Shown piece by piece: positions 8,670 through 9,240 of a stretch of 20,177 nt of DNA. The stretch is from Haloferacaceae archaeon (GTDB taxonomy: Archaea; Halobacteriota; Halobacteria; Halobacteriales; Haloferacaceae), in NCBI GenBank assembly GCA_018609965.1, contig JAHENP010000110.1, forward strand, positions 1-20,177. The letters run 5' to 3'. The notes under the pieces were generated by a model that was not told the DNA's origin, did not search any database, and saw only the letters and a program-made list of their open reading frames with translations. Both the position numbers and the translations under genes were made by a program. Every line of letters begins with the position of its first letter. The stretch's first letter is position 1.

Positions 8670-9193
8670 CTGTCGACCTCCACGTCGAACTCCGTCTCCA
8701 GGTACGCCACCGCGTCCTCGACGGTCATCCGGTGGCCGCTCGGGATCGACCGGGTCTCTGCGTCGCGCTTCGCCACCCGGTAACCCGGGCGTGTCAGCGT
8801 CACTGTCACGTCCAACCCGTAGATCCCGATGGTCGGGTCGTACTCCTGGCTCGGGAACTCCGTGTGTTCCTCGACCCCGAAGCTGACGTTGCCCACGTCG
8901 TCGAACTGGGAGGCGGACAGATCCGCCAACGGCAACGCCGTCTCCAGGAACGCCGTCGCGTCCTCGCCCCGGAGGGTGACCTTCGCACCGATCGGGTCAC
9001 CCGGCCGGATGTCGAACTCGGCAATCGACTGCTGGGCCTGCGTCCGGACGGACTGCTGGCCGGTGATCTCGTCTAAGATCTCCTCGGCGTTGGCGAGTTC
9101 GCGACCGCCCTGCCCGACGCCCATGTGGACGACGACCTTCTCGACGCGCGGCTCCCGCATCTCGTGGAACCCTGCGTCGTCTGCCTCGCTCAT
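8666..9193 (-). CDS. rpl5: 50S ribosomal protein uL5
   Basis: A 175-residue uL5, which binds 5S rRNA and contacts the P-site tRNA from the central protuberance. The conserved core starts MREPRVEKVVVHMGVGQGGRELANAE (about 12-37), with FGVEEHTEFPSQEYDPTIGIYGLDVTV (about 105-131) and RPGYRVAKRD near the end. ATG 9193 is chosen because GGAGGTGA, complementary to the archaeal 16S 3' end, lies exactly 6 nt upstream. The ATG overlaps the stop of a 15-codon ORF (9193-9240) that fills the space after eS4. Its own stop overlaps uS14 by 4 nt. Confidence 0.96.
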   Translation of the reverse strand: MSEADDAGFHEMREPRVEKVVVHMGVGQGGRELANAEEILDEITGQQSVRTQAQQSIAEFDIRPGDPIGAKVTLRGEDATAFLETALPLADLSASQFDDVGNVSFGVEEHTEFPSQEYDPTIGIYGLDVTVTLTRPGYRVAKRDAETRSIPSGHRMTVEDAVAYLETEFDVEVDR

Positions 9194-9240
9194 CAGTCGT
9201 CACCTCCTGAAGACGTTGTCTTCCGTGGACCGGAGTTCAT
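9193..9240 (-). CDS. Possible 15-codon mini-cistron between eS4 and uL5
   Basis: The space between eS4 and uL5 contains a complete small ORF encoding MNSGPRKTTSSGGDD. Its ATG overlaps the eS4 stop by one base (TGATG), and its TGA overlaps the uL5 ATG in the same way. A consensus Shine-Dalgarno sequence, GGAGGTGA, lies exactly 6 nt before its ATG, the same spacing as for uL5 and uL14. Codons 6-11 encode a perfect hairpin (9209-9223), and the start codon lies in the loop of another (9232-9246). The product has no recognisable domain and is far below usual gene-finding limits. It could be a functional microprotein, a leader peptide whose translation opens the uL5 start, or simply a spacer translated for coupling. 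The signals are seen directly; function is unknown. Confidence 0.6.
   Translation of the reverse strand: MNSGPRKTTSSGGDD
9200..9207 (-). promoter_or_regulatory. Shine-Dalgarno sequence of uL5
   Basis: GGAGGTGA (minus strand) with a 6-nt spacer to the uL5 ATG. It also forms the second-to-last codons of the 15-codon ORF that precedes uL5. The 17 bases from this site through the ATG are identical to those in front of uL14 (10698-10714). Confidence 0.85.
9209..9223 (-). other. Perfect hairpin abutting the uL5 Shine-Dalgarno sequence
   Basis: On the mRNA strand GAAGAC-AAC-GTCTTC forms a 6-bp perfect stem with a 3-nt loop. Its 3' arm ends one base before the uL5 Shine-Dalgarno sequence. It lies inside the 15-codon ORF, so a ribosome translating that ORF would melt it. 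Confidence 0.55.

Follow-up and report, generated by a model that had tools for sequence, protein, structure and literature searches.

The ribosomal protein genes eS4 and uL5 in the window analysed here, a stretch of 20,177 nucleotides from a Haloferacaceae archaeon, are separated by a gap of 46 nt, which is filled exactly by an ATG-to-TGA open reading frame (ORF) of 15 codons on the minus strand (9193..9240) encoding the peptide MNSGPRKTTSSGGDD. We propose that this micro-ORF is probably a bridge (relay) cistron, which preserves termination-reinitiation between its neighbours rather than making a useful peptide. Comparison documents its anatomy, history and recurrence, from which we infer its translation and its coupling to the flanking genes.

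Comparison shows that within this genus the usual short stop/start overlap of eS4 and uL5 was split by an insert of about 47 nt carrying its own start and stop, each overlapping the adjacent gene, and the Shine-Dalgarno (SD) site of uL5. According to our proposal, ribosomes finishing eS4 would reinitiate at the micro-ORF via TGATG, translate its 15 codons and stop at the uL5 start through a second TGATG, and the coupling of uL5 to eS4 would thereby be kept across a gap otherwise abolishing it. The peptide would be a by-product, and such inserts would be tolerated because they are read through by ribosomes. In Haloferax volcanii, reinitiation was reported to be abolished or nearly so at a gap of 22-23 nt (three gene pairs) and already substantially lower at 13-14 nt, while in two pairs of E. 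coli the final 15 nt of the upstream gene were reported to be enough (PMC10666635). Since Haloferax reinitiation fails at 22-23 nt, the 46-nt insert should break the coupling of uL5 to eS4 unless something carries ribosomes across. Against a bridge, uL5 could start de novo from its own SD site.

Both flanking genes were identified above the NCBIfam cut-offs, eS4 (rps4e, 9240..9941) as 30S ribosomal protein S4e (E 1.8e-93) and uL5 (rpl5, 8666..9193) as 50S ribosomal protein L5 (E 6.3e-74), whereas the names of the remaining ribosomal proteins of the window cluster are presumed from position and general family features. On the minus strand, to which all features of this junction belong, the sequence reads ...GAC GGAGGTGA GGAG TGATGAACTCCGGTCCACGGAAGACAACGTCTTCA GGAGGTGA CGAC TGATGAGC... 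A TGATG overlap is present at either end of the micro-ORF, with one base (A) common to each stop/start pair: the eS4 TGA (9242-9240) and the micro-ORF ATG, and the micro-ORF TGA (9195-9193) and the uL5 ATG (9193-9191). The SD site GGAGGTGA lies 6 nt upstream of the micro-ORF ATG, within the eS4 tail (9247..9254), and again 6 nt upstream of the uL5 ATG (9200..9207), where it falls in the micro-ORF and begins with the first Gly codon of Gly-Gly-Asp. The 5' and 3' modules of the insert are near-identical (GGAGGTGAGGAGTGATG and GGAGGTGACGACTGATG). Measured against the empty G293 site, the insertion amounts to a net 47 nt (9208..9254), with boundaries that are arbitrary inside the repeated SD-stop-start module. 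A bridge cistron was defined as an ORF with its start at -8..+10 of the upstream stop and its stop at -8..+10 of the downstream start; the window micro-ORF fits this definition, with ends at -1 and -1. The coordinates, the frame, the stop, the overlaps on both sides and the SD site at 6-nt spacing are all as an earlier sequence-only reading of this DNA had described them. Its claim that this is the sole gap of the uL3-uL15 stretch also holds for the junctions measured: the 17 others among the 18 from uL4 to uL18 come to -16 to +4 nt.

Elsewhere in the window, the gene for RNase P component 1 (11008-11577) is long (189 codons), contains a repetitive DNA stretch and overlaps uS17 by 16 nt; its NCBIfam match covers residues 2-73 and scores 99.5 bits, below the cut-off of 154. 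Upstream, in the S10 cluster, positions 16732-16831 on the minus strand match the Rfam L4-Archaeoglobi ribosomal protein leader (RF03135), scoring 72 bits where the gathering threshold is 34.5, and G251 also has a match (L184, 17045-17144). The lineage of RF03135 is given as Archaeoglobi in a published table (PMC7247131), and the window is haloarchaeal.

The sequence-only reading also held that chance agreement of these features is unlikely, a claim whose outcome proved to depend on the null. When the window gap is dinucleotide-shuffled at unchanged length, 27% of the shuffles contain an ATG-started bridge in the -8..+10 range. The fraction is 9.6% when the gap length is also varied by one base, 6.3% in single-letter shuffles with varied length, and 74% under a null of kept length that also admits GTG and TTG starts. 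With -8, -4 or -1 overlaps and ATG on both sides, it is 27% at fixed length and 1.0% with varied length. The window locus on its own is thus weak to moderate evidence for a bridge, and the case rests on recurrence in relatives. Since a duplicated SD-stop-start module, or an ATGA-flanked element, supplies both overlaps at once, only the frame and its openness count as independent evidence.

For the distribution of the insert, 183 eS4-uL5 loci were taken, 100 of them short stretches; these are loci rather than genomes, and some genomes are repeated. All were readable except L052, which lacks eS4. As in all junction counts of this analysis, the candidate start closest to a 4-nt overlap was taken, a choice that favours overlaps. 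On this basis eS4 and uL5 overlap in 175 of the 182 loci, by 4 nt (140), 8 nt (28) or 1 nt (7). The seven non-overlapping loci are the window (three copies), G251 (one), G294 (two) and L076, which was rejected as a true gap because eS4 there has an interrupted frame. True gaps were found only in the window genome (G000), G251 and G294, three of the four members of the window genus sampled, and the fourth, G293 (97% complete), has a plain ATGA overlap without insert. A tree of cluster proteins (up to 3,672 residues, 1,445 for G294) with nine outgroup genomes has the form (outgroups, (G293, (G294, (G000, G251)))) with supports of 84 and 97. On this tree, one insertion of about 47 nt after the split of G293 would be the simplest history.

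The insert is 46 nt long in G000 and G251 (MNSDPRKTKSSGGEK) and 85 nt in G294 (29 codons, MCPNGDTQTDAAGNTSVDTSGDELGGEQL), where uL5 begins with GTG. The frame and both overlaps are intact in all three (n=3) despite the changed length and sequence. Apart from the first codons and the SD module, no convincing alignment of the G294 spacer to those of G000 and G251 was obtained; it may descend from the same insertion. The alignment over haloarchaea that the sequence-only reading had envisaged finds no spacer outside the window genus among the 182 loci; where the spacer is present (n=3), lengths differ by whole codons. Its claim of a translated cistron is here a comparative one, to which the start overlap, stop overlap and frame kept in three of three carriers and the same architecture elsewhere lend support.

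A neutral insertion, which we consider rather unlikely, would explain the micro-ORF as the product of a partial duplication of the SD-stop-start module, leaving an ORF by construction, translated or not; it would be dispensable, given that uL5 has an SD site of its own. The near-identity of the two modules, the restriction of the insert to one genus and the bridging of 27% of the length-preserving shuffles all suit this explanation, against which stand the frame nevertheless kept in the G294 spacer, 39 nt longer and hardly alignable, and the excess over chance of bridging in other inserts (see below).

A second homologous 46-nt insert (MCSDPQETVSSGGDD) was found in G251 at the uS17-uL14 junction, 1.5 kb away, so that G000 has one copy and G251 two. 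This second insert is absent in G293, the window and G294, where the junction lies at the contig start. A whole-module pattern matched only the three known sites in 167 genomes of the family (reversed control 0), and these were also the zero-mismatch matches of an 18-base pattern searched with up to two mismatches in the four genus genomes. With both orientations counted, the 18-base pattern and its reversed control gave 24 and 11 matches in G000, 38 and 15 in G251, 38 and 40 in G293, and 46 and 35 in G294. Given the excess over control in some of these genomes, further distant copies may exist.

An RNA regulatory element, in which the insert would fold over the uL5 SD site or bind a ribosomal protein with the ORF being secondary, appears improbable. 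The different 66-nt family described below has a covarying fold containing its SD site, and the G000 and G251 inserts both retain a 6-bp inverted repeat (GAAGAC/GTCTTC). However, a hairpin in the window insert was rejected as no better than dinucleotide shuffles, which reached the longest stem in 209 of 1000 and the minimum free energy (MFE) in 169 of 300 cases for G000, and in 160 of 1000 and 87 of 300 for G251. By eye, the uS17-uL14 copy of G251 has one mismatch and one G-U among the six repeat pairs. G294 is a less clear case (stem reached in 23 of 1000 shuffles, MFE in 74 of 300).

The micro-ORFs of the two closest species, G000 and G251, differ in 4 of 15 residues, with one further codon changed synonymously. 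At first, second and third codon positions, 1, 2 and 3 of 16 differ, too few for a formal test; the corresponding divergence of uL5 is 12.6, 8.0 and 26.3%, eS4 being left out of this comparison because of a one-codon length difference. The comparison gives no sign of peptide constraint on the micro-ORF, and among the insert carriers it points to conservation of the frame and both overlaps, not of the peptide. The attenuator-like leader peptide suggested by the sequence-only reading, which would sense translation for the spc half of the cluster, fits the location upstream of uL5 and is nevertheless very unlikely: it lacks a single-amino-acid run and a conserved peptide, its fold is not above shuffle level in G000 or G251, and the insert is confined to a single genus, where three of the four members sampled have it. 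The functional 15-residue microprotein likewise suggested there has in its favour an open frame with a good SD site, and is hardly credible in view of the substitutions given above, the different peptide in G294 and the absence of the insert from G293 and the other genera sampled.

The bridge cistron explanation gains from other ribosomal junctions. A survey of 21 junctions (uL4 to uL15) in 154 loci gave 2,163 unique junctions. Gaps measure -16 to +11 in 2,126 of them and at least 12 nt in 34, and three have longer overlaps. One of the 34 (uL6-eL32 in L043, 114 nt) was rejected as an in-frame N-terminal extension with a wrong start, and the later-found uL4-uL23 junction of G294 was added, giving a tally of 34. 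A 216-nt gap in L075 was dropped as it was gone under a second junction-measuring method, and rnp1 starts were placed by hand at the conserved N-terminal motif. Mini-ORFs bridge 30 of the 34 gaps, against a chance expectation of 16.0 with dinucleotides and length kept or 6.7 with length varied by one base. Because many of the 34 gaps are relatives, they were reduced manually to a single entry for each junction and family; of the resulting 11, 7 are bridged, compared with 2.6 expected at kept length (P ~1e-5) or 1.3 at varied length (P ~1e-6). A value of P ~3e-10, from single-letter shuffles with varied length of 13 hand-picked, partly related gaps (11 bridged), is too strong. The shuffles attribute a chance share to flanking overlaps and stop-poor sequence, so the rest of the bridging pattern lies in the frame.

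At uL29-rnp1, 8 of 10 gaps are bridged (L040, L044, L046, L050, L249, L260, L262 and L263), all by ORFs of a third kind with the pattern MRS...GVnREEGDLDEEE, 19-37 codons long, whose ends lie at -1 to +5 nt relative to the rnp1 start. These ORFs show by eye an apparent short hairpin, which varies. At the other junctions 22 of 24 gaps are bridged, 21 of them with -8/-4/-1 overlaps on both sides. The four unbridged gaps are those of L226 (56 nt) and L246 (19 nt) at uL29-rnp1, and of L228 (12 nt, with a 4-codon GTG frame only) and L237 (13 nt). The 221-nt uS8-uL6 gap of G294 (L186, G294:C173; also L033 and L068) is filled by a repetitive bridge ORF of 74 codons (MGDMRRSATTQRDNTTRRS...), which starts directly after the uS8 stop and has an ATGA overlap with the uL6 start. 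In L059 and L064, uL5 and uS14 are joined by a bridge ORF of six codons (MTEDKQ and MMEDQQ) with ATGA overlaps with both neighbours.

A folded family of 66 nt provides another kind of bridge. It was recognized from a 58-nt gap at uL4-uL23 in eight unique loci and an insert at uL2-uS19 in six, at least four of which are clear relatives. Twelve inserts (11 distinct, with one 3-nt gap) have three helices, in which 6 of 21 pairs are changed on both sides. In an enlarged, nearly gap-free set of 37 (32 distinct), which is fitted to the model because it was collected with that model, 12 of 21 pairs and 49 cells are changed on both sides, the corresponding cell counts being 11.3 for shuffles and no more than 14 for slid controls. 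This set came from 32 hand-chosen loci; L064 and L066 were left out, as were L316, L319 and L322-L327, which are longer or weaker. The last helix holds the SD site at its loop and 3' arm. Third codon positions are less variable than first and second ones, with pN/pS of 1.3 (30 gap-free rows). Judged by these substitutions, the fold and the frame are kept in this family and the peptide is not.

Of the 243 genomes searched in the order, 46 have matches to the 66-nt family at E<=0.01, one to three per genome, and 22 of the 46 reach E<=1e-6 (strict filters). In a phylum draw of 294 genomes, not broken down by order, four matched, all of this order. A genus search gave 14 matches, 12 of them at E ~0.05 or worse; the other two (L284 and L285) and 30 loci from the order search were examined in context, revealing 27 exact bridges and five loci without one. 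Of the bridges, 11 lie at etfB-etfA, 6 at uL4-uL23 (one in G294) and 5 at uL2-uS19. The remaining five are single cases: trpB-trpA, a pair of methionine-synthase-like genes, a gene for replication factor A, a thiolase together with an OB-fold protein, and a transglutaminase-like gene. Ribosomal proteins or ETF subunits are thus the partners in 22 of the 27, and tryptophan synthase subunits in one more. The non-ribosomal pairs were named by Pfam and NCBIfam from one example per pair, the EtfB and TrpB partner names being interpretation. In Rfam, the elements of five loci were unmatched at gathering, and two sub-threshold matches near one element do not overlap it.

The element has ATGA at both ends, and comparison of L244 with the empty sites of L187, L034 and L036 gives ATGA-62 nt-ATGA. 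Filled and empty sites occur in sister species. Parsimony requires 6 changes for 8 carriers among 95 at uL4-uL23 (shuffled mean 7.8, minimum 6) and 5 changes for 5 carriers at uL2-uS19 (shuffled mean 4.9, minimum 4). On the tree of cluster proteins the distribution is patchy, with losses indistinguishable from gains. Some insert families, not demonstrably that of the window, look like mobile elements entering stop/start overlaps. One of the five loci without an exact bridge, a match before leuD (L319, G178:C42; E 4.7e-7) that has no exact start, is possibly a decayed copy. The window insert was rejected as a member of the 66-nt family, since its score with filters off, 8.8 bits, is lower than that of many chance matches within the same loci, and models R1 and R2 had no match in G000 at E<=1. 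A MAFFT alignment of the two is suggestive at the first codons and is not evidence; architecture alone is common to them.

The window 15-codon cistron, the folded 66-nt family and the uL29-rnp1 ORFs have no detectable relation. It is about an even bet that haloarchaea harbour a guild of at least three such bridge-cistron families, which settle in stop/start overlaps and persist as translated stepping stones. The 66-nt family would move between operons, mostly those encoding subunits of one complex, as an archaeal counterpart of the mycobacterial interspersed repetitive units (MIRUs), with a conserved fold hiding the next SD site until a ribosome arrives. If bridge cistrons are real, what look like gaps in tightly coupled operons of archaea are frequently filled by tiny cistrons of which the translation matters and the product does not. 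They would be natural experiments on reinitiation distance, and would explain unannotated small ORFs in operons while cautioning against labelling these as microproteins. The 66-nt family, with its fold and frame kept without the peptide, makes the bridge question directly testable in Haloferax.

Known termination-reinitiation pairs of haloarchaea, as described in PMC6728339 and PMC10666635, are similar in their stop/start overlaps and in the SD site inside the upstream gene, and are also enriched among complex subunits. The accounts given there concern direct neighbours, unlike the inserted bridge cistron, and the terms 'bridg' and 'small protein' are absent from the main text of PMC10666635. 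In synthetic bicistronic design, as outlined in PMC12548453, a short ORF likewise delivers the ribosome and removes worry over repressive RNA structure; the micro-ORF, in contrast, is natural and lies between two native genes. No such elements in archaea were found among the open-literature matches listed (titles and abstract openings), which most subscription papers lie outside.

MIRUs enter stop/start overlaps with a short target on both sides and have many dispersed copies per genome. Compared by description, the window insert resembles them in anatomy only, as a short intercistronic insert with an ORF adjoining its neighbours. It differs in being archaeal and in its low copy number (one in G000, two in G251), with no sign of wide mobility. 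Its flanks have TGATGA on both sides and a repeated SD module, with no clean boundary. The 66-nt family, also compared by description, is closer to MIRUs in having ATGA on both sides and a patchy distribution, and differs in its few matches per genome and its covarying RNA fold. MIRUs are described as short intercistronic inserts with an ORF coupled to the neighbour gene, apparently mobile and thought to insert with little effect on expression (PMC12548453). By analogy, we regard them as the closest known kind to bridge cistrons, which, if correctly interpreted, would extend the MIRU principle from mycobacteria to archaea.
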